Origin: Erythrobacter sp. BLCC-B19
GTDB taxonomy: Bacteria > Pseudomonadota > Alphaproteobacteria > Sphingomonadales > Sphingomonadaceae
Assembly (NCBI RefSeq): GCF_028621955.1
Contig: NZ_CP117516.1
Span: 828,001 to 892,000, forward strand
Direction: 5' to 3'
Length of the DNA stretch: 64,000 bases
A program made the position numbers and the translations under genes. Positions 425-22,950 of this stretch are shown piece by piece; position 1 is the stretch's first letter, and each line of letters opens with the position of its first letter. The notes under the pieces are model-generated. The model was given only the letters and a program-made list of their open reading frames with translations. It was not told where the DNA came from and ran no database searches.

Positions 425-1777
425 ATGCAGTCAGGAATCAATGCGCCAGTGAAAGCATATAACTTCGTTGATTTGTTCGCAGGATGCGGCGGTTTGTCGC
501 TCGGTCTTTCTTATGCTGGCTTAACAGGTCGCTTCGCAATTGAGCGTGACGCCATGGCATTTGAAACGTTCCGAATGAATTTTTTGGACAACCCGCCATA
601 TTCCATCGGCTTCAAATGGCCGAACTGGCTTGCGGCGAAAGCCTGGGACATCGAAGTTCTGCTAGATCAGCACAAGGACGACCTATTGAGTTTGCAAGGT
701 CAGGTCGATGTTTTGGCTGGCGGGCCACCCTGCCAAGGCTTTAGCTTTGCAGGGCGACGTGTCGAGGCCGACCCCAGAAACTCGCTTTTCGAAAGGTATG
801 TCGAAGTAGTCAGTGTGCTGCAGCCCCAAGCGCTAATTTTAGAAAACGTACCAGGAATGCGCGTGGCACATTCTAAAAAAAGTTCTGTCGATCTCGAAGG
901 GTCTAGAAAAAACAATCCTAGACCTCTATCCTACTATGATAAACTTGTCTCAAGTCTAGATAAGGAAGGCTATCAGATCGACGCGATGTTGGTCGATTGT
1001 TCGAGGTTCGGCGTACCTCAGCGGCGATCGCGATTGATTGCTATTGGTATTCGGAAAGACCTCTCCCCATGGATTGAGGGCGGGATATCACGTGTTTTCG
1101 AACTTCTTGAACAAGCTCGTGTTGCCCAGCTGGCAGAATTCAGACTTTCCGATTCAGTGAGCGCTAAGTCCGCTATTTCTGATCTCGAAATTGCTGGTCA
1201 TGAACTAATCGCAAGCACCGACCCCGACTTGTCGAGGCCCTTTCAAGAAATAAGCTATCGTCGCCCCAGAACGGCTTATCAAAAATTGATGCATGCAGGT
1301 CATGTCGGGCGGATGGATAGCATGCGACTCGCTCGACATCGCGACGATGTGCGCGATCGATTTGCGCGCATATTGGTTGAATGCCGCAAGGGTGTTCGGA
1401 TGGATGACGAGAGCCGAAAGACGTATGGGCTCAAAAAGCATCGGATCTACCCCATGGCTAGTGATGAGCCTGCCCCAACGGTCACGACCTTGCCTGACGA
1501 CATCTTGCACTACTCCGAGCCACGAATCCTGACGGTGCGAGAAACCGCCCGTCTCCAGTCATTTCCCGATTGGTTTAAGTTTAAAGGGAAGTTTACGACT
1601 GGAGGAGAGCGCCGAACAAAAGAGTGTCCCCGATACACACAGGTTGGGAATGCCGTGCCCCCCTTTCTGGCGCGTGCGATCGGCATGGCTATTCGCCAAC
1701 TTTTGGATGAGGTCGCCGTAGCGCGATCTATTTTCGATGAGGACGTAAGAAAACAGGCATCGGCGCGGGAGCGTTAG
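425..1777 (+). CDS. DNA (cytosine-5-)-methyltransferase
   Basis: The 450-residue protein carries the ordered motifs of C5-cytosine methyltransferases. Motif I is VDLFAGCGGLSLG (residues 15-27), motif IV is GGPPCQGFS (99-107) with catalytic Cys103, motif VI is ENVPGM (140-145), motif VIII is QRRSRL (199-204), and motif X near the C-terminus is QVGNAVPP. It transfers a methyl group from S-adenosylmethionine to carbon 5 of cytosine; the recognition sequence cannot be read from the protein. Length and motif completeness indicate an active enzyme. The next gene begins 9 bases after its stop and the two after that overlap, so it is the first gene of a four-gene operon. In that setting it probably marks self DNA for the downstream ATPase/nuclease proteins rather than acting as an orphan regulator. 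No strong ribosome binding site precedes the ATG. Confidence 0.93.
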   Translation: MQSGINAPVKAYNFVDLFAGCGGLSLGLSYAGLTGRFAIERDAMAFETFRMNFLDNPPYSIGFKWPNWLAAKAWDIEVLLDQHKDDLLSLQGQVDVLAGGPPCQGFSFAGRRVEADPRNSLFERYVEVVSVLQPQALILENVPGMRVAHSKKSSVDLEGSRKNNPRPLSYYDKLVSSLDKEGYQIDAMLVDCSRFGVPQRRSRLIAIGIRKDLSPWIEGGISRVFELLEQARVAQLAEFRLSDSVSAKSAISDLEIAGHELIASTDPDLSRPFQEISYRRPRTAYQKLMHAGHVGRMDSMRLARHRDDVRDRFARILVECRKGVRMDDESRKTYGLKKHRIYPMASDEPAPTVTTLPDDILHYSEPRILTVRETARLQSFPDWFKFKGKFTTGGERRTKECPRYTQVGNAVPPFLARAIGMAIRQLLDEVAVARSIFDEDVRKQASARER

Positions 1778-1786
1778 GGGGACGTA

Positions 1787-3898
1787 GTGACGGAAGAAAA
1801 CATCGCAGCGCCATATCCGGCGCAGCTGTTGAATTGGGCGGGCAACCGTTCTGGCGGCGTCCGCCGTCTCTTTGATAGTACAAGCGGGCGCCCAGGTGGA
1901 GCGGTGTTTCAGACGAACCTCCTGCACCGCCTCAGGTCTTGGGCTGAATCTATCGCTGCAGGAGGGCACGACGTTCCGCGAATACTGCTGCTGGTAGGAG
2001 GCCCAGGAAACGGAAAGACTGAAGCGATTGAGTCAACTGTCGGCTGGATCGATGAGGCCCTTAGCGCTCGAGGCGCGCTCAACGATGCATTCCGAAAGTC
2101 ATTTCTGCCGAGCGACGGCGCCGCTGTGCCAAGACTGGTTCGTGTCGATGTCCATACTGAAGGGTTGTCATCAAGACCGCTAACGTTGTCCCTTGTTCAG
2201 GATGCGTCAGCGGTAGTTGGCTCAAGCGGGAAACAGGCATCACAGCTATTGCTGGACGAGCTAGACGCAATTCAGAGTAAGGGAGCGAAAGAGGCATACC
2301 TTTGCTGTGTGAACCGCGGCATACTTGACGACGCCTTGATCGAGGCCATCGACACTGATCGAACCAACATCCGGCGTTTACTTGAAGGTGTCACACGAGC
2401 GGTGAGCCTAGCTCCCGATGCACCGTCCTGCTGGCCGTTGGCAGGTCATCCCGAAGTTGCTGTCTGGCCAATGGATTCGGAGTCTCTACTGCGCGCTCCG
2501 GCAGCAGGCGGAGAGGTGCCTGCGAGGGCAGTATTGCAAACCGCACTGGATGAGCAGCAATGGCCGGAGGCGGGCTCATGCGCAGCCGGCACCGCATGCC
2601 CCTTCTGCGGGAGTCGGGAACGCCTTTCGCGCGACCGCGAGCAGACATCGTTCCTTCAAATCTTGCGGTGGTTTGAGGTGGCTAGTGGCAAACGCTGGAG
2701 CTTCCGCGATCTTTTCTCACTAATGTCCTACCTTTTGGCGGGACACAGAGTCTCCTCACGAGAGGCGACCCTAGATCCATGCGAATGGGCAGCAAAGCTT
2801 GTCCAAAAGGACGCGATTGCCCAGCGCGGCGGCAAGCCATCAAAGGACCATTCAACAGCCATATTTGACTTGGTTGCGTCACAATATCAGCATGCGCTTT
2901 TCCACAAGTGGGATCGAGATGCGGGCCCTTCACTGCTGCGTGAGATCAAGGAGCTTGGGCTAGATGACGACAACACTGCAATGGGATTGCAGTGGTTTCT
3001 TTCATCGCGGAGGACTTCTTACTTGCCGGCGATGATAAGCAGTTCGCTTGAAGGTATCGCGGAACTTCTGGACCCAGCCCTCACAGACCCTAACATTGAA
3101 GTTCAAGCCACTAACAACAACAGCTTCGCGCTACGCGAGCTCGACGTTCGTTTCAGTCGTTCGGTTACTGAGGGCCTTGATTATATTCGAAAATATCGAA
3201 TTCTCTCGAAGATAGAAGTCGAATTGATCGAGAGATTGGCCAAACTTGACGCAGACCTGTCTATTGGCGCGATACGCCGGAGACGTCCTGCATCCGCTTC
3301 AAATGTCCAACGCTTCATACGAGACTTTGCGGGCCGCCTGACCAGGCGCGCGCTCGGCACCAAGGCGGCTGGAGTGCTTGACGCAGCGATCCTTGCAGAC
3401 TTTCAGCGGGTCATCGAGGATGCTGCGGGGGACGACTTATACGACGTTGCTCAGGAAGTACGGCAGTTGCTCAATCACAACCAAGACTTCGAGATTTCGC
3501 TCACCACGACATTCGGCCAACCACTGCCTCCTTCGATCCGTCGTGCGACACTTGTCGTGCCCTCTCGCCCCGTGCAGCCGCTAGAGGGGGATAAAGATGG
3601 CCGACCTGCTTCGCCGATTTGCTTCCTGCGAGTGGGTGACAGCAAATCGAGCCAACCAATTGCGCTAACCTATGACCTCTTCAAGGCTGTGAAAGAACTC
3701 GAAAAGGGAATGTCCGTAGCATCCCTGCCTCGGTCTGTGCTCGCGCTGCTCGATACGACACGAGCGCGCTTGTCAGGTCCAATTGTTAGGGACCGGCTCG
3801 TCCTAGATCAGGCACGGATCCGGATCGGCACAAGCGGGCAGGAGGTTGTTCAGCGACGTGCGGGATTTGCTTCTCGCAAGGAAGGCACTGGCCGATGA
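1787..3898 (+). CDS. P-loop ATPase, DndF/DptF-like restriction component
   Basis: The 703-residue protein starts at GTG after a purine-rich AGGGGG stretch, 9 bases beyond the methyltransferase stop. A Walker A motif GGPGNGKT lies at residues 71-78. Possible Walker B candidates are LVRVDVH (about 117-123) and LLLDELD (about 154-160). CCVNRGIL near residue 173 looks like a sensor strand. A cysteine cluster at C265, C271 and C274 (CPFCGSRE) could bind a metal. By its place before an unknown about 500-residue protein and a giant HerA/FtsK-type ATPase with a nuclease-like site, it resembles DndF (DptF), the NTPase of the phosphorothioation-dependent restriction set DndFGH. That homology is inferred from gene order, size and motifs, not from an alignment. 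A generic AAA ATPase of an unnamed defence system remains possible. Its stop overlaps the next start as ATGA. Confidence 0.6.
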   Translation: MTEENIAAPYPAQLLNWAGNRSGGVRRLFDSTSGRPGGAVFQTNLLHRLRSWAESIAAGGHDVPRILLLVGGPGNGKTEAIESTVGWIDEALSARGALNDAFRKSFLPSDGAAVPRLVRVDVHTEGLSSRPLTLSLVQDASAVVGSSGKQASQLLLDELDAIQSKGAKEAYLCCVNRGILDDALIEAIDTDRTNIRRLLEGVTRAVSLAPDAPSCWPLAGHPEVAVWPMDSESLLRAPAAGGEVPARAVLQTALDEQQWPEAGSCAAGTACPFCGSRERLSRDREQTSFLQILRWFEVASGKRWSFRDLFSLMSYLLAGHRVSSREATLDPCEWAAKLVQKDAIAQRGGKPSKDHSTAIFDLVASQYQHALFHKWDRDAGPSLLREIKELGLDDDNTAMGLQWFLSSRRTSYLPAMISSSLEGIAELLDPALTDPNIEVQATNNNSFALRELDVRFSRSVTEGLDYIRKYRILSKIEVELIERLAKLDADLSIGAIRRRRPASASNVQRFIRDFAGRLTRRALGTKAAGVLDAAILADFQRVIEDAAGDDLYDVAQEVRQLLNHNQDFEISLTTTFGQPLPPSIRRATLVVPSRPVQPLEGDKDGRPASPICFLRVGDSKSSQPIALTYDLFKAVKELEKGMSVASLPRSVLALLDTTRARLSGPIVRDRLVLDQARIRIGTSGQEVVQRRAGFASRKEGTGR

Positions 3899-5406
3899 CA
3901 CTCGAAAAATTCCGAGACGATCCTTGGCGAAACTCGCACCGCGCGTATCAAGACTCGGCTCTCGCGATGTCTCCTGCTCCTGAATATGCGAGCTCGGAGG
4001 TCATTCTTTCGTCGCTATACCGGCATATTGGACTTGAAGGAGCGTCCGAGCGAACCGTGCCGCAAAGTGGACGCGAGCTAGACAGAACGGTGCAGAAAAG
4101 TCGCGACCGCTCAAGGAAACCCGACGCTGCTGCCATGGATGCCGACACATTTCATATGATGCTGCATGCAGTGCTCGAGAGTCCCAAGCTACCGAACCAG
4201 TCATCAAAGCGCTTCGTGCAAGTGACGCCCTTGGTACCACAAGCCGCAATCTTCTCGGGTTCGGCCCGGCTGAGCAGCAATTCTTGGCCAGCAGGATCAT
4301 TGATCCGGCGCATGGTTTGGTTGGGATCGCCAAATAGCCAGTCGGCGGTCGCAATGTGGCAAAGGCTGTTCGATGCTTTAACCGTCACCGAAACCGATGA
4401 TGTTTTTGCTCGTTTTCTCCAATCTGAAATCGAAGCGTGGTCTCCCACCCCCAAATGGGCACCAGTCGATCCCGAAGAACAACCACTACTCGATCCATTG
4501 GACGCGAGAGGGCTAAGTTATCCGGCAAAGCGCTTCGTTCGCGATCTAGATGCCGTTATCGCTGCTAAGGGATCCATGACGCGGCGACAGTGGACGAGCC
4601 TGCTCGAAGCCATAATCAGGCTGGCCTCCGTGGCACACGTTGCATGGCTGTGCGATGTCCACGCCAAATCGTGGGAATGCATCCGCGCGGCAATGAAAGG
4701 GGTCGGGCCAGCGGACGAAGAGGAAGTCAGGGCAACAATCTTCCCAAGGTCATTCGACTTCCTCTCCTATGGAGATCGAGCCTTGCCTGGGATCAAGGAC
4801 CGCGCTTCGGCTTTCCTCCAAGCACGCCTTGGCATTAATGCAGCTTTATGGGCGCTAGAGGCGATTGGCGTTGAACCCAATTCGATCTCATCGTCTAAAG
4901 CCATCGCCGAAGTTTGCCATCAATTGAGAGAGAATTCTGACGCGCTCGCTTCCCTGAAGATTAGCCACATCATGAGTGAGGTGGACGAGCGAGAAACCCG
5001 AGCCCTGCTTTGCAAGAAGGGCATCGGGTCAAACATTATGGAATTTGCACGACATGTCCTCGGGCAACGACAGGCTGCTAATCCTGTACTGCGTGGCTAC
5101 GATCAAGGCTTTGTGCTCCGCAAGCGTGGCACGCACAATTCAAGCCCCTGGGTGGTGGGCCTCGGGCCGGTCAGCGTTCTCGCACTCGTTCATTGCGCGC
5201 TTGCGGGAACCACAGGACCGAGGTCGGTCCGGCGGCTTACGCAGCATCTTGGTGGCTATGGGGTAATTGTGGATTATCAGGACATCCCAACAAACGATCT
5301 CGGTCACCAGCTGAGGATGTTGGGTCTAGTGCTAGATAGCCCCGACGCTGAGAGCGGAATGCTACTCGTGCCACCATTCCCTAACGCTCAGGAGGAAGCG
5401 GCATGA
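3895..5406 (+). CDS. Unknown protein between two ATPases, DndG/DptG-like by position
   Basis: The 503-residue protein has no motif I can name. It lacks a signal peptide and membrane segments. The C-terminal part (about residues 415-495) alternates short helices and strands, with LGPVSVLALVHCALAG followed by RSVRRLTQHL and a turn before YGVIVDYQDI, which could be a winged-helix fold. It overlaps both neighbours by four bases (ATGA at each end), so its synthesis is coupled to that of the two ATPases. It sits where DndG (DptG) sits in DndFGH operons and has a comparable size. Assignment by position is inference; nothing in the sequence proves relationship. Confidence 0.5.
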   Translation: MTLEKFRDDPWRNSHRAYQDSALAMSPAPEYASSEVILSSLYRHIGLEGASERTVPQSGRELDRTVQKSRDRSRKPDAAAMDADTFHMMLHAVLESPKLPNQSSKRFVQVTPLVPQAAIFSGSARLSSNSWPAGSLIRRMVWLGSPNSQSAVAMWQRLFDALTVTETDDVFARFLQSEIEAWSPTPKWAPVDPEEQPLLDPLDARGLSYPAKRFVRDLDAVIAAKGSMTRRQWTSLLEAIIRLASVAHVAWLCDVHAKSWECIRAAMKGVGPADEEEVRATIFPRSFDFLSYGDRALPGIKDRASAFLQARLGINAALWALEAIGVEPNSISSSKAIAEVCHQLRENSDALASLKISHIMSEVDERETRALLCKKGIGSNIMEFARHVLGQRQAANPVLRGYDQGFVLRKRGTHNSSPWVVGLGPVSVLALVHCALAGTTGPRSVRRLTQHLGGYGVIVDYQDIPTNDLGHQLRMLGLVLDSPDAESGMLLVPPFPNAQEEAA

Positions 5407-8400
5407 GCCGATTGGCGACGATCATTGCCGAAATCGTTCGAGATAAACTGGCGCAGGCACCTGATGAGGCACGCGGCGAAATCCGACTAATCTTCCATGG
5501 CCCTCAGCGAGAAATCTTGGATCAAGTCTTTCTCGAGCTGACCGCGGACTCCGCTGAGAATCATGGCGTGCCGATCTTATTGCAGCTGCCGATCTTACCA
5601 GAAGGCCAAGAAAATCCAGCAATTGGCGTCTCAGGCTACTGCAACGATACGCACCTGCTCAATCTGCGGAATTCACCAGCACAGCCGACATTCTTGGCGT
5701 TAGTCCCTCCGGGCCAGCACAGCATGCGCTCCGTCACGTCGACCACCGACGAATTTGGAGTCTCTGCCGTTAACAATGGCGGCAACGTGCCCTTCGAAGA
5801 TTGGTGGGCCGATGAGTTCGTCCAACATTTGGTTAGCCTAGCCATCCGCCAAGCAGGTATTCCTCTCCAGCAGCAAGACGAGGCTCGCTCCCTGATCGGC
5901 AAGGCAGCCGCAGCTGCGGATGAGATGGACCAGCGAAAGCATGAGCGTTCGGCTGTTTGGCGACTTCTAGCACGCTTGTTCTCGATCGAATCAGGGCTGC
6001 ACGGCCTTGGTTCTGGAAGCTTGATTAGTCTAGCTTGCGGGGCGCCTCCGACGCGCGATGGCTCGATTTCATCGCGCGAGCAGATGGCCATTCTGGAGAA
6101 AATTGCTGACGCAATGTCCGATGGCTTTGCCCCCGGTATCCGCCGCGCCCAAGACAATGCCGACGAGGAAGACATTCGTCACCTCGAAGCGTTTCTGGCA
6201 CATCTAAAGGAAGCATGTGATCTTCCGACCGCGTTCGAAAGAGCGACAAGTGCCTTTTATGCACCCGAAAATGGATCGACGGTGCCCCCTCCACCTGATT
6301 GGTGGCGCGGACTGACGACCGAGAAGTGGTCCGAGCTTCTTACCGAGGAAACTGTCGCCCAAGGCGACATCCGTATGGGTTGCACCAACAGCCTCATCCC
6401 TACTGGGAAGGGAATGCCGGTGCTTGTCGAAAGCAAAGTCGCTCTTTCATTCGAAACAGTAGGACCAGACGCCACAGGCACAGTCGTCTGCATCGATCGC
6501 GGCAAGAACAATAGGCTCGGCGAAGTAACTGTCGGCGAAGAGGAGGCCATATTCGTAGATGGTACTCCACCCATCCACAAAGCACCCATCCGCTATTCCG
6601 CTACGGCGGACGGATTCAAGCCGGGAGCGATCAAGGTCATTTCGCTAGCGAGCTGGCACGCTGGAATCTTTGTCACCTGCAGACTGGCTAAGAAACTAAC
6701 GCCGCCCAAGAAGCCTACTGGTCGCGTTAGAGGTGGCCCAGACCTCGTTACGACCTTAAACGTGCCGGGGAGTGGCCGATACGAGCTGCTGATCTTCACT
6801 TCCCCAGGAGTTGAACTGGACGAAACGGCCATAGGCACCTTGGAAGATGGGCAAGACCGCGAAGATGCTCGCCAAACGCTTATGGTCCGACCCGTACGGG
6901 ATGGCTTCCATCAGCTAGAGATCGAAGCCGAGACAAACTATCAAGCCGATATCAGTTTCAGGCGAACTGCTGCAGACGGTTCTGAAACACACGGTACATG
7001 CCGAGTGCTCGTCACTGTTGAAGACGTGGTGGAGCAGGGCTGCCGAAGCGAGTTCGAACGCCTCATTCGCGCAAATCGCCGTGTGATTGAGCCCTCAGAA
7101 GCCAAACCTGTCGTGCAGCTCAACCGTAGTGCCCGATCCTCTAGCCTTCAGGATTGGATGCTATCGGAGGAGTCCGTTGGCCAATCCTATCTTCCGATCG
7201 TGCTGGCTGACGATTATGTCGATGCGTGGGTGCAGCCGAATTGGAGTCAGGACAACGGCCCTATCTTCTCCCGAGGACGGTTTCTGCAGGATCCCCGTCC
7301 GCTTGCTTCTGAGTTTATTCCGCCAGCAGGGTTTGTTGAGGCGCGTCAGAAATTGGCAGCCCGCGTCCGAGGTAGCGGCGATCAAAACGGACTCGTCGAG
7401 TCCGCTGAGCTCGGAAAATGGCTTGCGGCCGACCAAGATTTTCGCGCTCTGGTCGAGCAATATTTGGATTCCTATCAGGCATGGCTCGCCGCCGAGCCAG
7501 ATGTTGCGTGTTGGGTTGACGTAGCGGTTGTGACCTCACTTGAGGACGATCGCAGAACCATATCGCGTGTTCCTGACGCTATACTGCTTTCCCCGCTTCA
7601 TCCGGTCCGGATTGCCTGGCACGCGGTTGCGCAAGGGGTTCTTGTCGAAGCTGAAGCGGGCGGCAATCCCTGTCCCGCAGTTAGCGTCCTCGACCCGGAT
7701 TGTGTGCCAGACCTCATAACCCTTTCGTTGCGTTCGCCGGGAGGAATCGAGAAGGTCGACTTCCTCGCGGTTGAGAATGGCACGGACTATTGGTCAGTCT
7801 TGTGGAACGGCGATCGGCTTGGGCGACTTCCCAGTCGTTCCAGACTTGCGCCGTTTGGTGACGGGTTCGGCATCTCGGTCGGTGGTATTTCGGTCGGTTT
7901 CAGCGCGGCCCAAGTCGGCAGGGCCCTTGAGGACGTCTCTGGACTTTTGGCCGCCAAGCCCGTCGTGGGCGTTGTTGTAGCAAGTGCAGGCGGGACAACG
8001 GATGCCTGCAACGAAGGCCTCATTGAATGGTGTTCTAGCAAGTATCGCGATGAAGACACCCGTACACTGCGTCAGGCTGCAGGTCCTCGGTTCATTGAAA
8101 TTTATGACCACCGCGACGGCGAAGCCAAACCAGACGACGCTACCATCGCCAACTTGGCAGAAGATACGCGCAACGGCGTGCGCTGGTTTGTCGGTCAGCC
8201 AGCCAACGCGCAGCCAGATCTAGGCATCATAGCCCAACTCGACATGTCTGAACCGAGCGCTGCGCAGGTGGAAGGCCGCTCACCCTTGGGACGAGGCGGA
8301 CTACTCCGGCATCGTATCCGCCGCCAGCTTCCGGGAGCTTTCCTAAGCGAGACCAGACAAGCATTGCCTTCTGCTGCATCGGGAGATGTTCTGGCCGACA

Positions 8401-10862
8401 AGGTAGCGAATTGTATCGGTACGTTGGAAAGCCTTGGTGAGCGCCGCACCGGGCTGCGCTTTGCCCCGAATGTCAATGCTGTTCGCGACATGCTCGAGAC
8501 GCGCCGGACCGATTTTGTCGCGGCATCATCGTCTGCGATTGATCCCGCTTGCTTCCTTGGTGGTTGGCTGGAGGAAGCATACCTCTGGGATTACGACATG
8601 CCGTCCTATTCGCACCGAGCGGGTGATACGAATGGCTACTACCTTCTGTCTCGCGTCAAGCAGGCGGATCGCGAGGCGCTTTCGAAAGCACTAGCGCGGT
8701 TGCCGGGATGTACATCGATCACCCCCAACCAAGTTCAGGATGTGCTGCTTGAAATCGCTCGCCGAGGAATTCCCACGATCCGGGGTCTAGCGGGCGACAA
8801 TGCCGGAGCCACCGGTGATCTTGGGCTCTTTGTAGCTGTCCGGATGTTGCAGGATCGGTTTCGGCTCTCGAACATCGGGGAAAGCCTGATCCCCGTAATC
8901 GAGGGAAGCGGTGACGAACTTTCTGTCTGCATCATCGTGCCTGTGGATCCTTTTCGAGGCTATTTTTCCGATCTCGCGAAGTCACTTGGAAAGGATCGAA
9001 AGGACACCTCCCTGTCGCGCCCTGACCTGTTGGTTGTCGGCGCGAAGGTGGGGCAGAGCGGCGTCCGGATCCATTTGACACCCGTTGAAGTGAAGTGCCG
9101 ACCGGGATCGATTTTTCCGGCCTCTGAAGTCGACGACGCGCTAGAGCAGGCCAGAACCTTCTCAAGGCTCCTGACCAGCATGCTACCGCACGACAAGCAG
9201 CCAGTCGCCTGGTCGCTAGGTTTCCAGCATCTGTTGCTGTCAGTTATTGGCTTCGGAATGAGGGTCTACAGCCAACATCCCGACGTAAAGGGACGTGAGG
9301 GACAATGGTCCTTACTGCACGAACGCCTTGCATCAGCGATCCTTGGTCCCGATCCCTGTGTCTCGATTGACCAACGCGGCCGACTCATCATTGTCGACGA
9401 CAGTCCGCGCAGCGGGGTTCGGGACCGCGATGAGGACGGCTTCGACGAAACCATTACGATAGGCAGCGCCGATGCCGGTGGTGTCGTGGCTGGTGATCCT
9501 CTTACGTTTTACGATAGCGTTCGAGCTAAAGTTGGCTCGTGGGGCTTTTTCCCGGATGGAGCGGCCCAACTCATCAGCGAAGCGCGACCGCCGGCAACCG
9601 ATTCAGCTGAGAACGTCTCTGGAGATACAGTTTGCCTAGACGACGTCGCCGAACGGCCTGCACCGCCCTCCGGTGATGCGGCTGGTCCCGCCGGTCCGGA
9701 ACGCCATGTTGAGGCAGACGCTTCGTCAGGAATCGCTCTTTCTATTGGCTCCACCGTAGACAGCTTCAAAACGAGTGAAATCGTATTGAACATCTCGGAC
9801 ACACGGCTGAACCAACTGAACATGGGCGTCGTTGGTGATTTGGGAACTGGCAAGACGCAGCTGCTTAAGTCGTTAATCCTTCAGATCTCCGATGCTGCGG
9901 CCGCCAACCGGGGCATTCGCCCTAGGTTTCTGATCTTCGATTACAAGCGAGATTACAGCAGCCCGGATTTTGTCGAGGCGACTGGCGCACGCGTCGTCAA
10001 ACCCTATCGCCTTCCACTAAATCTCTTTGATACCAGTACGCTCGGCGACGCTGCAGCTCCATGGCTTGATAGGTTCCGCTTCTTTGCCGACGTTTTAGAC
10101 AAGATATACAGCGGGATCGGTCCGGTACAGCGAGACAAGCTCAAGAAGGCTGTGCGCGCTGCCTACGAGTCCTGCCTCTCTGGCGAGCAGCCAACATTGT
10201 ATGATGTGCATTCGGCCTACGCCGAGCTGCTCGATGGCAAATCAGATTCGCCAATGGCGATCATAGACGATCTGGTAGACATGGAGGTATTTGCTGCCAA
10301 GACGAGCGATACCCAGCCGTTCGACGAGTTTCTTGACGGAGTGGTCGTAATCTCTTTGGATGCTCTCGGTCAGGACGACCGCAGCAAAAACATGCTCGTC
10401 GCCGTGATGTTGAACATGTTCTATGAAAATATGCTCCGCACCCCCAAGCGGCCATTCATCGGCTCGGATCCGCAGCTGCGCGCAGTTGATTCCTACCTAC
10501 TGGTCGATGAAGCAGACAACATCATGCGATATGAATTCGACGTCCTGAGAAAGCTGCTGCTGCAGGGTCGCGAGTTCGGGGTCGGCGTCATACTTGCCTC
10601 ACAATACCTGCGTCACTTCAAAGTGAACGCGACCGACTATCGCGAGCCGCTCTTGAGCTGGTTCTTACACAAGGTGCCCAACGTTACCCCGGCAGAACTC
10701 TCCGCCCTTGGCCTAACGGGAAGCGCAGCTGAGTTGGCCGAACGTGTGAAATCGCTTCAGGTGCACCAGTGCCTATACAAGTCGTTTGACGTTTCAGGGG
10801 AGGTCGTTCGAGGACTGCCATTTTTCGAACTGATGGCACAGCGAAAGCGCGATTCAAGTTAA
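5403..10862 (+). CDS. Giant HerA/FtsK-type ATPase with PD-(D/E)xK-like site, DndH/DptH-like
   Basis: This is an 1819-residue protein. The C-terminal third holds a HerA/FtsK-type P-loop domain: Walker A GDLGTGKT at 1478-1485, FLIFDYKRDYSS shortly after, and Walker B LLVDEADN with D1702 and E1703. Upstream, PDLLVV at 1207 and VEVK at 1228-1231 form a PD-X20-ExK pattern (D1208, E1229, K1231), typical of restriction-type nucleases. The N-terminal about 1000 residues are unassigned, with alternating hydrophobic strands and a WHAVAQGVLVEAEAGG helix. Residues around 1400-1460 are low complexity and probably a linker before the motor. Length, a FtsK/HerA C-terminus and the company of a smaller ATPase match DndH (DptH) of phosphorothioation restriction. 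It is the last gene of the operon and would be the DNA translocating or cutting subunit acting on DNA without the cognate 5-methylcytosine mark. The nuclease call rests on a short motif. Confidence 0.65.
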   Translation: MSRLATIIAEIVRDKLAQAPDEARGEIRLIFHGPQREILDQVFLELTADSAENHGVPILLQLPILPEGQENPAIGVSGYCNDTHLLNLRNSPAQPTFLALVPPGQHSMRSVTSTTDEFGVSAVNNGGNVPFEDWWADEFVQHLVSLAIRQAGIPLQQQDEARSLIGKAAAAADEMDQRKHERSAVWRLLARLFSIESGLHGLGSGSLISLACGAPPTRDGSISSREQMAILEKIADAMSDGFAPGIRRAQDNADEEDIRHLEAFLAHLKEACDLPTAFERATSAFYAPENGSTVPPPPDWWRGLTTEKWSELLTEETVAQGDIRMGCTNSLIPTGKGMPVLVESKVALSFETVGPDATGTVVCIDRGKNNRLGEVTVGEEEAIFVDGTPPIHKAPIRYSATADGFKPGAIKVISLASWHAGIFVTCRLAKKLTPPKKPTGRVRGGPDLVTTLNVPGSGRYELLIFTSPGVELDETAIGTLEDGQDREDARQTLMVRPVRDGFHQLEIEAETNYQADISFRRTAADGSETHGTCRVLVTVEDVVEQGCRSEFERLIRANRRVIEPSEAKPVVQLNRSARSSSLQDWMLSEESVGQSYLPIVLADDYVDAWVQPNWSQDNGPIFSRGRFLQDPRPLASEFIPPAGFVEARQKLAARVRGSGDQNGLVESAELGKWLAADQDFRALVEQYLDSYQAWLAAEPDVACWVDVAVVTSLEDDRRTISRVPDAILLSPLHPVRIAWHAVAQGVLVEAEAGGNPCPAVSVLDPDCVPDLITLSLRSPGGIEKVDFLAVENGTDYWSVLWNGDRLGRLPSRSRLAPFGDGFGISVGGISVGFSAAQVGRALEDVSGLLAAKPVVGVVVASAGGTTDACNEGLIEWCSSKYRDEDTRTLRQAAGPRFIEIYDHRDGEAKPDDATIANLAEDTRNGVRWFVGQPANAQPDLGIIAQLDMSEPSAAQVEGRSPLGRGGLLRHRIRRQLPGAFLSETRQALPSAASGDVLADKVANCIGTLESLGERRTGLRFAPNVNAVRDMLETRRTDFVAASSSAIDPACFLGGWLEEAYLWDYDMPSYSHRAGDTNGYYLLSRVKQADREALSKALARLPGCTSITPNQVQDVLLEIARRGIPTIRGLAGDNAGATGDLGLFVAVRMLQDRFRLSNIGESLIPVIEGSGDELSVCIIVPVDPFRGYFSDLAKSLGKDRKDTSLSRPDLLVVGAKVGQSGVRIHLTPVEVKCRPGSIFPASEVDDALEQARTFSRLLTSMLPHDKQPVAWSLGFQHLLLSVIGFGMRVYSQHPDVKGREGQWSLLHERLASAILGPDPCVSIDQRGRLIIVDDSPRSGVRDRDEDGFDETITIGSADAGGVVAGDPLTFYDSVRAKVGSWGFFPDGAAQLISEARPPATDSAENVSGDTVCLDDVAERPAPPSGDAAGPAGPERHVEADASSGIALSIGSTVDSFKTSEIVLNISDTRLNQLNMGVVGDLGTGKTQLLKSLILQISDAAAANRGIRPRFLIFDYKRDYSSPDFVEATGARVVKPYRLPLNLFDTSTLGDAAAPWLDRFRFFADVLDKIYSGIGPVQRDKLKKAVRAAYESCLSGEQPTLYDVHSAYAELLDGKSDSPMAIIDDLVDMEVFAAKTSDTQPFDEFLDGVVVISLDALGQDDRSKNMLVAVMLNMFYENMLRTPKRPFIGSDPQLRAVDSYLLVDEADNIMRYEFDVLRKLLLQGREFGVGVILASQYLRHFKVNATDYREPLLSWFLHKVPNVTPAELSALGLTGSAAELAERVKSLQVHQCLYKSFDVSGEVVRGLPFFELMAQRKRDSS

Positions 10863-10937
10863 ACATGTCCGCACAAAATCCGACGCGGGCGTCTTCCGCA
10901 CATATTGGCTGGAGAAAGCTCTTTCTTCGTTAGGTTT

Positions 10938-11834
10938 TTACAGGCAGTGAAAGATCCCCCAACCACTCCGCAGCCTTGGCCGCCGCGCTGGCAGCGGTGA
11001 AGATCGCGCGGTTGTCCCCTTTGAGCCTTTCAGCCAACTTGCGAGGTAGCAGGCATGATCCGGACGCGGGGTGACCGACAAGCCAAGGTCGCCGCAGAGG
11101 AAGGCTGAGCCAAGTTCGGCGACCAGCTCCTCCATGGCATAGGCCTCGTCACCGAAGCGCTTGCCAAAGGTGCGGGCTAGGCGATGATCAGCCCCGGTCC
11201 AGTGAACCAGCTCGTGGAGCAGGATGGCATACCAGTTCTGCTCGGCGCTGGCGGTGGTGGTGGTAAAAAACCGCTCGCGATCAGGCATGGTGATCGTGTC
11301 GGTCGAAAGGGTGTAGTGAGCGCTGTCGCCCTGAATGCGGATGGCAGCCCCTGTGGCGGCGATGAAGGCCTCGACATCGGAGATGGGATCGAAGGCCTCG
11401 GCTTCGGGCACTTCGGGCACTCCGGGCAAGGCGTAGCCTTCGACCTGTGCGATGTTGAACACATGCGAGCCCTGCGCGAAGATCCGGCCCGCGCCCTCGC
11501 GCGCTTCGTCTTCGCCGCCCTCGGCCTTGTCCAGCACCTTGTAGAACACGATCGGCGAGGCCTTCTCGCCCTTGCGCACCTGCGCGCCCAGAGACTGCCA
11601 CTGGCGGTAGGTTGCCCAGAGACCGTGCCCGAACTCCTGCGCTTCGGCGCTGGCCCAGAGGGCAAGGACATTGACGCCGCGATAGGCCTTGCGGGTGACC
11701 GCATTGACAGGTCGGGTGAGCGGGGCGCTGCTGCGGTGCCAGGGAAGGGTACAGCCGCCGGTGCCGCGCTCCAGCGCGGCGATGATCTGGTTGGTGATGG
11801 TGTCGTAGATGCTGGCGGTTGCGGAGCTGGCCAT
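10938..11834 (-). pseudogene. ardC: ArdC-type antirestriction zinc protein, C-terminus frameshifted
   Basis: From ATG at 11834 the protein begins MASSATASIYDTITNQII and shows the ArdC layout: an N-terminal ssDNA-binding domain of about 130 residues and a zincin-like C-terminal half with HELVH at residues 207-211 followed by the helix AYAMEELVAELGSAFL that supplies the third ligand. ArdC protects incoming DNA from host restriction. After WL at residues 267-268 the frame turns into Arg/Pro-rich sequence. Reading one base differently from 11030 gives RLKGDNRAIFTAAS and AAEWLGDLSLPVKT with a stop at 10930-10932, matching the usual end of this family (WLxxLKxDxRAIFTAAS). One base therefore seems to be missing, either as a mutation or a sequencing error. 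Zinc-binding residues are intact, so function may survive. It lies next to and convergent with the restriction-like operon, and after the relaxase gene in the transfer block. Confidence 0.75.
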
Positions 11835-12055
11835 GGTGGTAATCCTTCGTCCTGTCGTTGGGAACGCGGATGAAGGGACGGGCCGGATGGCCGGGTGGGT
11901 CAGCGCGAAGCGCGGAACAGCCAACACGGGAGGGCAAAGCCCGAATGGAGCGGGCAGGCTGTTGATCCCGCCCGGCACGGGCCGTCACTCAGGGAGCAGT
12001 TCATTCCATTGGCAGGGCGAAGGATGTCATGGCCCTGTATTCACGCATCATCCGA

Positions 12056-17969: not shown

Positions 17970-18565
17970 GACAGATTCCTCATGGTTCAAGGTTCTGCCA
18001 CTGGCGCCGTCGTCCCCTTCCTGAGTGGCGGGTCGAACGTCGCGCGGCGAGCCGCACGACGGTCCTGTATTCAACCCGACGCCCCTGCCTGAGCTTCAGT
18101 GACCATCAGAAGCTATGTGCGACGTCCGGCTGTTGGAAAGAACAAAACAGGATCAAATGGCGTTCCGTTTGGCGCGCGGACAGCTGTGGACGCAGCGAGA
18201 CGGATCGCGTCCGGAACAGATCTCACGAATGGGAAGCCAAGGCTCGGTTTCGTCGATGATCGGCAGCATCAGTGTCGCATTTTGGCGGCGCTTATGGCCG
18301 AAATCTGCGCGACTCGCAGCATGGCGACATCGCTCTTCACCAACGTCTCTATCTCGGGGTGTTTGCACACGCCGCGCAGATGCTGACCTGTTTGCTCGTC
18401 CATTCGGGTTCGTCGGTCATTAAGTTCCAATCCAAGAAATGTTTGATTGCTAAGCCAGATGCCGCGCGGGTCGTACCATGCAAATCCGGTTAGGTCTGAA
18501 GGCCAAGCTTGAAAGAGATATGATAGAAGGGCAATGACACAGTGTTCTTGATGGAGAGAGTTGCT
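17970..18565. other. Intergenic region between transfer block and HNH-ATPase operon
   Basis: No gene can be supported in this roughly 600-base stretch between divergent operons. Short frames on both strands lack start signals and recognisable motifs. A minus-strand frame in about 18270-18540 reads protein-like (GFAWYDPRGIWLSNQTFLGL) but runs into the HNH-ATPase gene on the opposite strand and ends abruptly; it may be a relic. The sequence becomes AT-richer near 18505-18550, where TATGAT at about 18519 could be the -10 of the plus-strand operon. Confidence 0.4.
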
Positions 18566-20860
18566 GTGCGTTTCGTCGATCGCTCGTCCTTCGCGGAGCC
18601 TCAAATATTCTACTCGAAGCGGGCCGAAGAAGCGCGCCGGCAGTTGCAAGAATTCGTTTTCCAGGCGGACGAGAAGCTGCGCTCGCAAAGTCGCTTCTTT
18701 TTCGACCAAGAATTGATCGACGGAGCGGAGGTCCGGGGAGCTTTGCTGGAGCTATTCTGCTCCGTCTGCGCATATTGCGAGACGCCGGTCCACGCGTTCT
18801 CCGACAAGCGCTTGGACGTCGCGACCGATCATTTCCGTCCGCGCCAGAACGCGTCCGACCACCGCGGAAAAAGCGAATTTATCTATTACGCTTGGCTGGC
18901 CTATGAGTGGGACAATCTGGTCTTGGCTTGTCCTTCGTGCAACCGCGCCAAGCGCAACCAGTTTCCGCTCCGCGACAAGCGGCGCGGCAGGATCGGAGCT
19001 CCGATCGCCGAGCTGCGCGAGATCGAGCGCCCCCTACTTCTCGACCCCTGTCATTCGGATATTGCGGCGAGCCTGTCTTTCTCTCCCGACGGTTCTGTCG
19101 AGGGCCGCAACGAAATCGGCGACGCCACTATCCGGATCCTGCAGCTTGATCGCTCGCAGCTCGTCGAAAGTCGCCTGAGGGCGTTCCGCGCTTATGCAGT
19201 GGCCCTAATCGATCACCACCAACGCCCGCATGTCGAAGACACCGGATGGGGCGACGGTTGGGGATCGCATGTCGCCCGCTTTCCTGATCTGGAACACGGT
19301 CACTTGGGTGCATTTGCACTAAGCTTGAGGAACGTGCTCTCACCTCTCGATCGCAAACTCAGGGATCTGCCCGACGCGCTCAATCTCCTCGATCGTCTGA
19401 CCGGGGCTCAAAAGCTTGATGTACTTGCCCGTTATTTCGGTTCCGCGCGCGATTTCGAGAGTCGCTACAAGGCAGTCCTTCTCGAGGCTTCGCCGAAAGA
19501 CGGGCTGGCGCGTCCTTACGCCCCGTCGCGGGCCTTAGATCCTCGCGCGCTAAAGACTGCCAACTTCCCGATCGCGCGCGTATCGATTGAGAACTTCAAG
19601 GCGTTGAAGCGGATCGAGTTTAACCTGCCCGCTGTAGTTGAGAACCCCCAACTTGCCCCCTGCATGCTCGTTCTTGGCGAAAACGCGACGGGCAAGAGCA
19701 CCGTGCTCGAAGCGATTACCCTCGCGCTTATCGGGACCGACGAGGCCCAGCAGCTCGATTGGTTGCTTGAAGACGAGCAGATAGAGCCCAGTGCCTTTAT
19801 CCATCGCCCCGATGTCGGAAATTGGGAGGTTCCCAGCAAGCAACCACTGCGCGTCGAGATCGGGTTCGCGCATTGCGAGGAGAAGGTGGAACTCAGCGGG
19901 CATGCCGGAGATGACCTGTTCGAAGGCACCCCCTTTCCATCCACGATCGTATTGGCGTACGGGCCTCGACGGTTCTTCCGGAAGAAACCGATGCGCCGTT
20001 TTCGGGCACCCGCCTACCGTGTCCGTTCGCTGTTCGATCCGATGGCCGTGATCCCCAACCCGATGCAGTGGCTCCTCGAGCTGCGCGACGAGGGCCGCTT
20101 CGATGCGGCAGTCAGGGCGCTGCGCTCCGTGCTGATGCTCAAGGCTGATGCCCGCGTGCTGCGCGGCGAGAACATGATCCTGGTCGATACGCCGCAGGGC
20201 AGCGTCCCGATGTCGCGACTGTCGGTTGGTTACAAGTCGGTCGTCGCGATGGCGATCGATATCATCCGCGAGATGTTTTACTACTTCGACAATCTCGAGG
20301 AGGCCCGCGCGGTCGTGATTATTGACGAGATCGAGACGCACCTTCATCCGCGCTGGAAGATGCAGATCGTTAGCTCCTTGCGGGAAGCCTTCCCGCAGAT
20401 CCAGTTCATCCTGACGACGCACGATCCGCTGTGCCTGCGTGGCATGTACCAAGGCGAGGTGTTCGTACTCCAGCGCAACACCGATGATGCGGCGGTAGAA
20501 TCGCTGCAAGAGCTTCCTGATGTGCGCGGCATGCGCGCCGAACAGATCCTTACTTCGGAATTCTTCGGACTGGGCTCGACCGATCCGGAAACCGACGCGC
20601 GCCTGATGCGCTACCAATTCCTCGTCCGCAAGGACGAGCTCAGCGCCACCGAAAAGGACGAAAAGGAGCTGCTCGCATCCGAGCTCAAACGGCGAATGGC
20701 TGTCGGAGAATCGGTCGAAGAACAGGCCGAGGCCGTGGCCATGCGCGCCTTTACTGACGAGCGCGAGGATGTACCATTAGTGCTCGATCCCGACGCCCGG
20801 CCGGGTCGCAAAGCAATGGTCGAGCAGGCACTGGCCAAGCTTCGGTTGAGCGTGGACTAA
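18566..20860 (+). CDS. HNH nuclease fused to SMC/ABC-type ATPase, Septu-like
   Basis: GTG at 18566 is preferred because GGAGAGAG lies seven bases before it; GTG at 18542 and ATG at 18551 are in frame and possible. Counting from 18542 the N-terminal 150 residues are an HNH nuclease with CAYC (C76, C79), DHFRP (D96, H97) and CPSCN (C130, C133, N134). From about residue 343 there is an ABC/SMC-like ATPase: Walker A GENATGKST (379-387), signature-like LSVGYKSV (560-567), Walker B VVIIDEIETH (591-600), and the H-loop THDPL. In Septu systems PtuA is such an ATPase and PtuB an HNH protein; here both are in one chain. The stop is four bases from the next gene, which encodes another HNH protein. The architecture suggests an anti-phage nuclease gated by the ATPase. 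Confidence 0.85.
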   Translation: MRFVDRSSFAEPQIFYSKRAEEARRQLQEFVFQADEKLRSQSRFFFDQELIDGAEVRGALLELFCSVCAYCETPVHAFSDKRLDVATDHFRPRQNASDHRGKSEFIYYAWLAYEWDNLVLACPSCNRAKRNQFPLRDKRRGRIGAPIAELREIERPLLLDPCHSDIAASLSFSPDGSVEGRNEIGDATIRILQLDRSQLVESRLRAFRAYAVALIDHHQRPHVEDTGWGDGWGSHVARFPDLEHGHLGAFALSLRNVLSPLDRKLRDLPDALNLLDRLTGAQKLDVLARYFGSARDFESRYKAVLLEASPKDGLARPYAPSRALDPRALKTANFPIARVSIENFKALKRIEFNLPAVVENPQLAPCMLVLGENATGKSTVLEAITLALIGTDEAQQLDWLLEDEQIEPSAFIHRPDVGNWEVPSKQPLRVEIGFAHCEEKVELSGHAGDDLFEGTPFPSTIVLAYGPRRFFRKKPMRRFRAPAYRVRSLFDPMAVIPNPMQWLLELRDEGRFDAAVRALRSVLMLKADARVLRGENMILVDTPQGSVPMSRLSVGYKSVVAMAIDIIREMFYYFDNLEEARAVVIIDEIETHLHPRWKMQIVSSLREAFPQIQFILTTHDPLCLRGMYQGEVFVLQRNTDDAAVESLQELPDVRGMRAEQILTSEFFGLGSTDPETDARLMRYQFLVRKDELSATEKDEKELLASELKRRMAVGESVEEQAEAVAMRAFTDEREDVPLVLDPDARPGRKAMVEQALAKLRLSVD

Positions 20861-20864
20861 CGGC

Positions 20865-21770
20865 ATGATCAAGGTTGATCGCCAAGGTCTTCCCGCTTCG
20901 CTCGATCTCGACGATCCGGCGAGTCCGGCCAGCCGAGAACTCGCGCAGATCGTCGACTTTCTCGGGGAGAACGGCGTGCTGCCCGCCAAGATGGATTTCA
21001 ACGCCTACTCGAATCACGACGTCAAGGAGATGCTGAAAGACGTCTTTAGCCGCAAATGCGGCTATTGCGAAACCTTTGCAAGCGCCGGCCACGATAGCGA
21101 CATTGAGCACTACCGTCCCAAGAAGGGCGTCACCGAGGCCGACGAGGCGGGTATCGCCCATCCCGGATACTGGTGGCTCGCGATGCGCTGGGATAACCTT
21201 CTGCTAAGCTGCCAGCATTGCAACCAGTATCGCAAGCAGGTTATTATACCGCACGGCGCCACGAGCGAGGAAATCGAAGCGATCCTGCGCGGAGGTCAGC
21301 TCGTCACCTCGGGCAAGAAAAACCGCTTCCCGGTCGAGAACAATGGCTGGATCGTCGATCATACGCAGGACGTCGCTAATGAGGCAGCTTTGCTGATCGA
21401 TCCTTGCGTGACTGATCCCGAGGATCTACTCGAATGGGAATTCGATGACGCGCTTTCGACGGTCAAAGCGCGGGCCAACGATCCGCGCGGCGAGGCGACG
21501 ATCGATATTCTCGGCCTGAATCGCCGCGATTTGACAGAAACGCGCGTGACCGTACTCAACGCCCTGCGCAAAAGGCGCACCCGTATTCGGTCACGTTTAA
21601 GGAAGATAATCGACGCCGATACCGAGGTGGCAGCCAGCGAGGCACTACAGATCGTTCTAGAGGATATCGAAGACCTCAAGGCGAGCTGCGGAAAGGACCA
21701 GGCTTTTGCCGGAATGGCCCGCGCATTCTGCAAGCAACTGGAAGATGAAGTGACCACGGCGCTGCAATGA
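20865..21770 (+). CDS. HNH endonuclease, PtuB-like
   Basis: The 301-residue protein has an HNH domain with CGYC (C65, C68), EHYRPK (E81, H82) and CQHCN (C116, C119, N120), the same arrangement as in the preceding fusion protein but in a different sequence, so it is a diverged paralogue or independent recruit. The C-terminal third is helical and charged (ALRKRRTRIRSRLRKIIDAD). The ATG follows the upstream stop by four bases, giving a tight operon. It resembles the PtuB effector of Septu systems, which cuts DNA when the partner ATPase releases it. Its role beside an ATPase that already carries an HNH domain is unknown. Confidence 0.85.
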   Translation: MIKVDRQGLPASLDLDDPASPASRELAQIVDFLGENGVLPAKMDFNAYSNHDVKEMLKDVFSRKCGYCETFASAGHDSDIEHYRPKKGVTEADEAGIAHPGYWWLAMRWDNLLLSCQHCNQYRKQVIIPHGATSEEIEAILRGGQLVTSGKKNRFPVENNGWIVDHTQDVANEAALLIDPCVTDPEDLLEWEFDDALSTVKARANDPRGEATIDILGLNRRDLTETRVTVLNALRKRRTRIRSRLRKIIDADTEVAASEALQIVLEDIEDLKASCGKDQAFAGMARAFCKQLEDEVTTALQ

Positions 21771-22155: not shown

Positions 22156-22950
22156 TCATGGACGCCCGCTTCCCAGGTCAGACGGAACGGTTATCTGGTA
22201 GGTGGGATCGAGCTTACCGCCTTTCACGAGAACGCGCTTGCCCGTCCCTAGATCGACCCGTTCCATGTCGAGCCGCGATCGCCAAGCATGGCGGTGCCGG
22301 TCAGCAAAGAAGAAGAAAAGCCGCTTCACCTTCACGCTTGCGCAGGCCTCGAGCAGGGTCTGCAATCGACGCGGACTGAGGTCAGCCATGCCCTCCATCA
22401 ACATATCGACCTGATGGAAGCTTTCGCGGTGCGGGAGCTCGTCGAGAAGTTCGAGCAGCGCACGCTCCTTGCTGGAATATCGTATTGGGAGGCTCATGCC
22501 GGCAGCACTGTACATCACAGGTTGCGGCGCTGGTGGGGCATCAGCATCGCTCGGAAACAGGCGCAGGCTGTTGTGCCACTGGAAGTCTATATCGAGGGGC
22601 AGGTCGGCCAGCCAGGTCGGGGCGCGTGTCGGTCCATAAAGGTGGACCTCGCGCATCCGCGAGGAGAGATAATGCGCATAGCCAAGCTCCTCGAGCGCAG
22701 TGCGCCCGCCTACGGTGAGCGGCAGATCCATGAGGTATTGAAGCGATATGACGACCTGTTCCCAGGTCAGCGGGGATTGGGATCGGCGATAGACGCGGCG
22801 CGCTGGGCTATGGAGCCATCCTGCACGCACATATTGGCTGCGCAGTGCAGAAGAATAGCCTTGGTCCTCTAACCAGGCAGCATCCACTAGCAGCCCATCG
22901 GGGAGCTTTTGCTGCAGCTGGTTTAGTTTTCCCTCAAAACACGTAGCCAT
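22156..22950 (-). CDS. AbiEi-family antitoxin, without its toxin
   Basis: The 264-residue protein matches the AbiEi group of type IV toxin-antitoxin systems: an N-terminal winged helix (LLVDAAWLEDQGYSSALRSQ, then GWLHSPARRVYRR) and the C-terminal antitoxin domain with VGGRTALEELGYAHYL and SSKERALLELLDELP. AbiEi represses its own promoter and counteracts the nucleotidyltransferase toxin AbiEii, whose gene normally overlaps the abiEi stop. Here the stop (22156-22158) is indeed part of an ATGA, but the frame that starts there closes after eight codons at 22133. The toxin gene has therefore been lost or was never here. Low-G+C non-coding sequence follows. The remaining protein may act only as a DNA-binding regulator. 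Confidence 0.8.
   Translation of the reverse strand: MATCFEGKLNQLQQKLPDGLLVDAAWLEDQGYSSALRSQYVRAGWLHSPARRVYRRSQSPLTWEQVVISLQYLMDLPLTVGGRTALEELGYAHYLSSRMREVHLYGPTRAPTWLADLPLDIDFQWHNSLRLFPSDADAPPAPQPVMYSAAGMSLPIRYSSKERALLELLDELPHRESFHQVDMLMEGMADLSPRRLQTLLEACASVKVKRLFFFFADRHRHAWRSRLDMERVDLGTGKRVLVKGGKLDPTYQITVPSDLGSGRP

Follow-up and report, generated by a model that had tools for sequence, protein, structure and literature searches.

Introduction

How might an FGH-type restriction complex tell host DNA from foreign DNA when its genes stand not beside those for phosphorothioation, but behind the gene for an ordinary C5-cytosine methyltransferase? The two characterised complexes depend on phosphorothioate as a mark: DndFGH, as a passage of PMC11662687 describes it, is a translocating 2:2:1 assembly with nicking activity, in which phosphorothioate represses ATP hydrolysis, and SspFGH, in an excerpt of PMC8092258, damages phosphorothioate-free DNA and is toxic in cells that lack the modification. 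The discrimination of self from non-self by phosphorothioate-linked FGH complexes is a matter of debate, as parts of PMC10853773 and PMC12707154 attest. An FGH branch equipped with a single C5 methyltransferase makes the question simple, the mark being easily written, mapped and erased.

The locus that raises this question lies in Erythrobacter sp. BLCC-B19, whose genome is one contig of 3.6 Mb, at the start of a stretch of 64,000 nucleotides (contig positions 828001-892000), which was analysed as a whole and is called the window here. A sequence-only reading had described four genes in a row, one for a C5 methyltransferase (M) and three for proteins likened to DndF, DndG and DndH (F, G and H). 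From homology and by analogy, we regard M-F-G-H as probably a restriction-modification system based on 5-methylcytosine (5mC), with a translocating nuclease of the Dnd/Ssp-FGH type as its restriction part. We discuss below the composition, kinship, recurrence and likely working of this module, together with the alternatives to this view.

A compact operon in a defence-rich setting

The four genes were said to overlap or nearly touch, and they do: all are intact open reading frames (ORFs) on the same strand (Table 1), with 9 bp between M and F and 4-bp overlaps at both the F/G and G/H borders, as given by the ORF coordinates. M-F-G-H is a genuine operon and far from a chance arrangement, given the catalytic residues conserved across 48-50 aligned sequences and the recurrence of the set across proteobacterial records. 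Its G+C content is 56%, against 66-67% in the flanking DNA, and among named organisms the closest versions of the cassette are carried by Porphyrobacter sp. IPPAS B-1204 and a Sphingomonas sp. Of possible phosphorothioation partners, SspBCD genes were not found among the operon genes and ten scanned neighbour proteins, and DndC and DndD have no match anywhere in the genome, which agrees with the earlier description of an FGH-type set without the key genes for that modification.

Upstream of the cassette are a gene for a tyrosine integrase (Table 1), one for a protein of 1453 aa whose start resembles a P-loop (L090:6249-10610), and two minus-strand ORFs (L090:11097-12674), one of them with a ThiF-like glycine-rich stretch recognised by eye; neither the large protein nor the two ORFs match Pfam or PADLOC. 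Immediately behind H, and convergent with it, an ArdC gene (window 10938-11978, minus strand) places anti-restriction beside restriction, and an ArdC-like gene, apparently the same by eye, also follows H in L006. Behind ArdC come genes for a TrwC relaxase and a TrwB coupling protein. Further along the window lie a Septu-like pair (18542-21770), made up of PtuA (772 aa, N-terminally PtuB/HNH-like) and then a separate PtuB (301 aa), and a gene of the AbiEi antitoxin family (22156-22950, minus strand). The cassette sits in a defence-rich island, which is probably mobile.

Table 1. Coordinates of the cassette genes, of predicted functional sites within them and of an upstream integrase gene. Positions are those of the window unless a locus handle precedes them.
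Feature	Position	Strand	Remarks
M	425-1777	+	450 aa, intact ORF; C5-cytosine DNA methyltransferase
M, catalytic PCQ	728-736	+	catalytic Cys in 47/48 aligned sequences; the remaining one a gap (L005, broken frame)
F	1787-3898	+	703 aa, intact ORF, GTG start; SspF/DndF-like P-loop protein
F, Walker A GGPGNGKT, residues 71-78	1997-2020	+	five positions tested, invariant in 50/50
F, Walker B-like strand CVNRG, residues 174-178	2306-2320	+	N176, R177 and G178 in 50/50
F, Cys cluster C265/C271/C274	2579-2608	+	50/50; aligns with the SspF Cys cluster
G	3895-5406	+	503 aa, intact ORF; DndG/SspG position, no family assigned
G, C-terminal region, residues about 420-497	5152-5385	+	candidate winged helix
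H	5403-10862	+	1819 aa, intact ORF; DndH-like, predicted nuclease plus HerA/FtsK
H, PD-(D/E)xK site D1208, E1229, K1231, Q1249	9018-9149	+	49/49 H proteins; D-x20-ExK spacing
H, HerA/FtsK ATPase domain, residues 1469-1811	9807-10835	+	Walker A 1479-1485; Walker B D1702/E1703
H, segment 1541-1580 of the HerA domain	10023-10142	+	sole segment with raised divergence at each of the three swaps of M; tentative
Tyrosine integrase	L090:3826-5127		upstream of the cassette

Kinship of the four proteins

M matches PF00145 of Pfam with 196 bits and TIGR00675 of NCBIfam with 150 bits, and is the sole PF00145 protein across the 3.6 Mb genome. It also scores against the DrmMII and DruM2 models of PADLOC, always beneath generic type II C5 methyltransferase models. 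Some motif positions vary among its aligned relatives, R200 and S202 being examples of those tested. The conservation alignments, for M as for the other proteins, include the window and exclude L001, L053, L054, L057 and rows that are too short.

The kinship of H is clearest in its C-terminal ATPase domain, which matches DptH of known structure (PDB 7es4) at E 2.8e-44, the PADLOC DndH model with 231 bits (residues 1471-1810) and, as HerA, the mad8 model with 47 bits. Of five copies taken from the plasmid collection and located in dpt loci, four share 33-34% identity with the domain and one, from Priestia, 26%. The Walker A positions tested are kept in 49 of 49 sequences and the Walker B D/E in 48, with one gap. 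When the HerA part is left out, the region of the nuclease site is colinear with DndH at E-values of 8.7e-4 to 1.6e-3, depending on the piece used, and aligns at the same site with the H proteins of a third FGH family at 2.9e-4 to 4.7e-4, and with SspH at a non-significant 0.061-0.092; residues 1-640 have no profile similarity to any of the three H families (E at least 0.16). By these comparisons H is homologous to DndH, plainly in the HerA domain and weakly at the predicted nuclease site. A tree of HerA domains places most H proteins of the 5mC type together, with two FtsK-type SspH rows among them on a branch length of 10; owing to these misplaced rows and to long-branch warnings it is not taken as evidence, and it gives no direction to the exchange of the self mark that the sequence-only reading had thought probable. 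HerA domains 36% (L066:8111-11047) and 34% (L067:8141-11152) identical to H also occur beside conjugation genes on Vibrio plasmids; one of these two proteins is annotated with a UvrD-helicase domain, and they are candidate kin of a captured HerA.

F by itself finds nothing usable in Pfam, NCBIfam or PADLOC (PADLOC-DB 2.0.0 has no dedicated F model), and meets the PADLOC SspF model at E 0.06. A profile of 50 sequences reaches E 4.8e-6 against SspF (residues 55-344 of F), 2.1e-4 against the third F family and 1.3e-3 against DndF, where the best wrong-family control is 9.4e-3, and a deeper profile gives 6.1e-6, 1.2e-4, 1.8e-3 and 9.3e-3, respectively; these profile-profile (hhalign) values refer to single pairs and not to a database search, and the SspF (3 sequences) and DndF (6) profiles are thin. 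The stretch aligned with SspF covers the Walker A motif, the Asn strand, the Cys cluster and an R-D-L motif. One of 38 F relatives scanned with PADLOC, that of L048, matches the SspF model at E 1.4e-6, and the DptF of Priestia matches it at E 1.5e-9, and through these two matches F, SspF and DndF are connected via SspF. On this evidence F is homologous to SspF, and its kinship to DndF is weaker. The Asn that F has at the Walker B position is likewise carried by DndF, according to a passage of PMC10853773, and annotated DptF proteins show, by eye, GIN.GM or similar at the place that matches CVNRG. R307 is kept in 50 of 50 F sequences, where an R-D-L-F motif is present, and the Cys cluster is possibly a zinc site in a lid.

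G is the most elusive of the four, with no Pfam, NCBIfam or PADLOC family above chance (PADLOC-DB 2.0.0 has no model of its own for G) and no sequence match in the PDB, and 33 of its relatives, when scanned, gave no PADLOC match and a best Pfam match of only E 0.059. Relatives at E<=1e-3 number 1088 among 8000 scored candidates. Its best alignments are to SspG (E 0.026), the third G family (0.094) and DndG (0.11), with a best control of 0.039, and all three lie at the C-terminal region and are colinear with the C-termini of those proteins; the resemblance to DndG and SspG is suggestive only, its E-values falling inside the control range. The claimed match to DndF, DndG and DndH in order, size and key motifs therefore stands for the HerA domain of H, weakly for its nuclease site and weakly for F, which is closer to SspF, and does not extend to G, where the similarity is non-significant.

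A recurrent module linked to a C5 methyltransferase

A survey of genomes for the four-gene order had been proposed along with the sequence-only reading. Scanning species genomes with G gave 49 loci, to which three of four plasmid matches were added (that on a Shinella oryzae plasmid is not among them), making 52 loci examined; L001, which is the window itself, is excluded from all counts. A C5 methyltransferase gene adjoins FGH in 49 of the 52: in 46 it lies upstream, no more than 470 bp away and on the same strand, in L002 it lies downstream on the same strand, and in L012 and L045 it is downstream and convergent. The three loci that lack it (L049, L051 and L052) are all cut by contig ends. 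The records that hold the gene set bear the labels alpha-, beta-, gamma- and deltaproteobacteria, and the single Gemmatimonas locus has an H that is cut early. Not every locus is independent, since Bordetella hinzii (L021) and Solimonas variicoloris (L023) carry near-identical M-F-G-H cassettes, which reflect either recent transfer or contamination. When 369 genomes from a different class in the same phylum were searched later, one divergent locus emerged, L093, with the order M-F-G-H and identities of 36% (F), 42% (G) and 34% (H). The module is rare: of 385 genomes sampled from the window's class, one (its own) has a G relative, and of the 369 from the other class, one does. The same methyltransferase queries found no C5 methyltransferase at any of 11 control loci (six DndFGH, three SspFGH-like and two of the third FGH type); one of the controls, the Priestia locus L070, has an adenine methyltransferase gene and an AlwI gene upstream. 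M-F-G-H is thus a recurrent module whose linkage to a C5 methyltransferase is constant, and the coupling to a 5mC enzyme that had been read from this one locus is upheld.

A gene for the Vsr endonuclease is present in 40 of the 52 relatives, after H within 59 bp in 37 and directly before M in 3, and 5 of the 12 loci without it are cut by contig ends. Vsr repairs the T:G mismatches that arise by deamination of 5mC, and its position in these relatives argues for active methyltransferases there. No Vsr was found in the window, in its two closest relatives or in the whole window genome, nor did L093 give a match across 19.9 kb.

Several loci depart from the common layout. In L053 (Arenimonas daejeonensis) the coding sequences of F, G and H are broken up over several frames, but M and Vsr are single open frames. 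L002 (Pseudoalteromonas) has an extra gene for a 165-aa protein between G and H (10525-11019) and M at the far end, with an HNH gene and a gene for a SAM-dependent methyltransferase upstream. The viral contigs searched held no G relative, and the DNA of the G gene of P. aeruginosa PA7 went unmatched in E. coli genomes. A 10.8-kb phage record from human faeces, MT836369.1, encodes at its end the last 99 residues of a G with 76% identity; it may stem from a transducing particle or be bacterial DNA that was binned wrongly.

Replacement of the methyltransferase

The M tree and the F+G tree are largely congruent, with clear exceptions; the former leaves out L005, L043 and L053 and carries long-branch warnings, including one for L030 with L002. 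L012 is nested beside L010, with 91% (F), 92% (G) and 91% (H) identity, and its M is just 32% identical, lies on the other side of H and groups with that of L045. In L034, the sister of L033, M is a third, very distant C5 enzyme (34%), and L018, sister to L017, has an M from another clade (45%). By these placements M was swapped for a different C5 enzyme at least three times; L030 may be one more instance, left out of this number since two long branches determine where it falls in the M tree. Beside the M genes of L012, L034, L018 and L045 no restriction gene of their own is evident among the ORFs inspected by eye, within contig ends that limit L012 and L045. The M of L093 is of the L012/L045 type (49% identity) and stands upstream of its FGH, so that this type is itself an FGH partner. 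The substitute is always another C5 methyltransferase, which fits a nuclease that requires 5mC in the cell. Such replacement, the usual fifth gene Vsr in relatives and the greater closeness of F to SspF than to DndF had all escaped the sequence-only reading.

If FGH read a particular methylated site, a change of M might leave its trace in F, G or H. Among 147 segments of these proteins compared with the target-recognition region of M, the best partial correlation is 0.29 (F 301-340), without a clear peak. The segment singled out in Table 1, H 1541-1580, has z-values of 4.6, 2.2 and 1.9 in the three swapped pairs and a mean z of 2.91, against a null 95% point of 2.5, with 1 in 1000 matched null triples as high, where the H of L018 ends within the segment, the null pool for L010/L012 consists of five pairs, and the divergence baselines leave out the swapped or suspect loci L002, L012, L018, L030, L034 and L045. 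Over the 147 segments and three replacements, nothing as large as a domain was seen to track M in F, G or H. A matched, sequence-specific reader might be expected to show more covariation than this, which counts against a simple matched-site model: the various methyltransferases may have one site in common, FGH may be tolerant of sequence, or the residues that matter may be few.

One doubtful but possible extension is that FGH reads 5mC itself, or its density, and not a methylated motif; C5 methyltransferases unrelated to one another, and perhaps differing in their sites, could then be swapped. It is suggested by the FGH of L012, which remains 91-92% identical to that of L010 despite an M at 32%, and by the lack of domain-sized change in FGH along with M; the H 1541-1580 signal slightly lowers the weight given to it. 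If the extension were true, that segment would reflect tuning of the motor and not a site reader, and the translocating nuclease would be licensed simply by the presence of 5mC. The existence of a branch with an ordinary C5 methyltransferase also suggests FGH as a general restriction engine with interchangeable marks.

Proposed mechanism and its alternatives

In the restriction-modification system that we consider probable, M would write 5mC at a motif in host DNA, and F, G and H would assemble into a complex of the DndFGH/SspFGH type, in which the HerA domain of H would translocate along DNA while its PD-(D/E)xK domain would nick or cut it, G and H would touch the DNA, and F would serve as a nucleotide-binding subunit with a regulatory or sensing part. 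DNA marked by M would hold the complex off, as phosphorothioate does for the DndFGH ATPase, whereas on unmarked phage or conjugating DNA the complex would run and do damage; in most relatives, the adjacent Vsr would repair the T:G mismatches that 5mC deamination leaves behind. The homology of H and F makes it most likely that the 5mC version works like DndFGH and SspFGH, with 5mC as the restraint, and from this kinship we infer complex formation, the reading of 5mC by FGH, the polarity of the nuclease and phage defence. Some observations count against this explanation, namely the absence of Vsr from the window's clade and from L093, the non-significant homology of G and the unlikeness of H residues 1-640 to DndH and SspH. 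The picture of one complex is also weakened by work in Salmonella, where single deletions of dndF, dndG or dndH leave some restriction (a study cited in a passage of PMC12707154).

The mark might conversely activate: host 5mC would license or activate FGH, some other phage cue would be the trigger, and M would be a co-activator and not a shield. SspE and DndI do respond positively to phosphorothioate (in a passage of PMC11662687), and the little covariation of M with FGH would suit such a role; we hold it to be unlikely nonetheless, as both characterised sets, DndFGH and SspFGH, are restrained by their mark and harmful without it, and the constant presence of M agrees with a partner whose toxicity calls for protection. 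If FGH were instead a standalone sensor of invaders, as an excerpt of PMC10853773 proposes for DndFGH, M would be a cargo neighbour that helps to maintain the island. The same paper argues that DndFGH is often decoupled from its modification genes, dndABCDE, and the module does lie inside an apparently mobile, low-GC island, but the contrast between a C5 methyltransferase at 49 of 52 relatives plus L093 and at none of 11 other FGH loci, together with a single C5 methyltransferase genome-wide, is hard to square with a passenger, and the replacing enzymes are again C5 methyltransferases without an evident restriction gene of their own; this account is decidedly improbable.

A module linked to conjugation or phages with some other role, in DNA transfer or incompatibility and not in defence, we judge very improbable, for the nuclease site is kept, defence genes lie nearby, and the homologies lead to SspF and DndH, members of tested anti-phage systems; what speaks for it is that the HerA domain is related to proteins near conjugation genes on Vibrio plasmids and that relaxase and coupling-protein genes adjoin the cassette. 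That the set is a divergent plain DndFGH, using phosphorothioation supplied from elsewhere with M as an incidental neighbour, is scarcely credible in a genome without DndC and DndD and with so constant a linkage of M, even though the HerA domain of H is DndH-like.

Relation to known systems

Comparison with SspFGH relied on L083 and L084 as stand-ins (PADLOC SspF scores of 755 and 747 bits) and on L085 (86 bits, partial). The order F-G-H and the sizes of the proteins are alike (621/510/1784 aa in L083, 703/503/1819 here), F is homologous over residues 55-344, and H is in both cases a large protein with a C-terminal ATPase of the FtsK/HerA class. The mark is phosphorothioate there and, by prediction, 5mC from one C5 methyltransferase here; the SspH ATPase of L083 is of the FtsK/SpoIIIE type, whereas H has a DndH-like HerA domain, and the match of G is non-significant. 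With DndFGH/DptFGH the module shares gene order, the HerA domain of H, the nuclease site of H and a P-loop F with an Asn at Walker B, but there is no dndC/dndD partner in the genome, F is weakly similar and G non-significantly so. The comparison of individual subunits is as follows: DndH has N-terminal SWI2/SNF2-like, beta-sandwich, TRD and inactive methylase domains, for which residues 1-640 of H offer no profile match; DndG is a triple winged helix, with which G aligns colinearly at the C-terminus (E 0.11); and DndF has a P-loop kinase-like core, to which F is linked at E 0.0013 (control 0.0094) and indirectly through SspF.

Type II restriction-modification systems with a C5 methyltransferase and Vsr are a familiar class. 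The module resembles them in its 5mC methyltransferase and, at 40 of 52 relatives but not in the window, the adjacent Vsr, and it shares with restriction-modification in general the linkage of a modification enzyme to a predicted nuclease, in 49 of 52 relatives and L093; its restriction part, however, is a three-protein ATPase/translocase set and not a small endonuclease. BREX, DISARM and MADS are likewise large, multi-gene, methylation-linked defences, and the HerA domain of H scores against mad8, but F and G match none of their PADLOC models, and DrmB-type DUF1998, PLD and PglZ are absent from the Pfam and PADLOC matches of F, G, H and the scanned neighbours; with the low rank of the DrmMII and DruM2 scores of M, the view that this is neither BREX nor DISARM holds by homology. 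MADS, BREX, DISARM and an orphan methyltransferase were considered and dropped, as was Druantia II, where M scores the DruM2 models yet F, G and H match no Dru model.

Precedent for cytosine methylation replacing phosphorothioate exists in the CxC-DndE systems with cytosine methylases described in a part of PMC10853773, which differ in having an ABC ATPase-DndE pair and an HKD/SF2 nuclease, none of which is in this operon. In the portion of that paper examined, no FGH set paired with a C5 methyltransferase is described, and neither "Vsr" nor "SspF" occurs in the main text. Nor was such a system described among the matches listed in a literature search of titles, abstract starts and some passages, a scope outside which supplements, preprints and subscription papers may hold an earlier mention. 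Within that scope the 5mC-linked branch of FGH restriction appears to be new, and the sets so far tied to phosphorothioate are its known kin. A third FGH-like set is seen at L086 and L087, where no C5 methyltransferase was found within the stretch examined; its proteins measure 889/1286 (F), about 600 (G) and about 1670 aa (H), and the C-terminus of its H is DndH-like.
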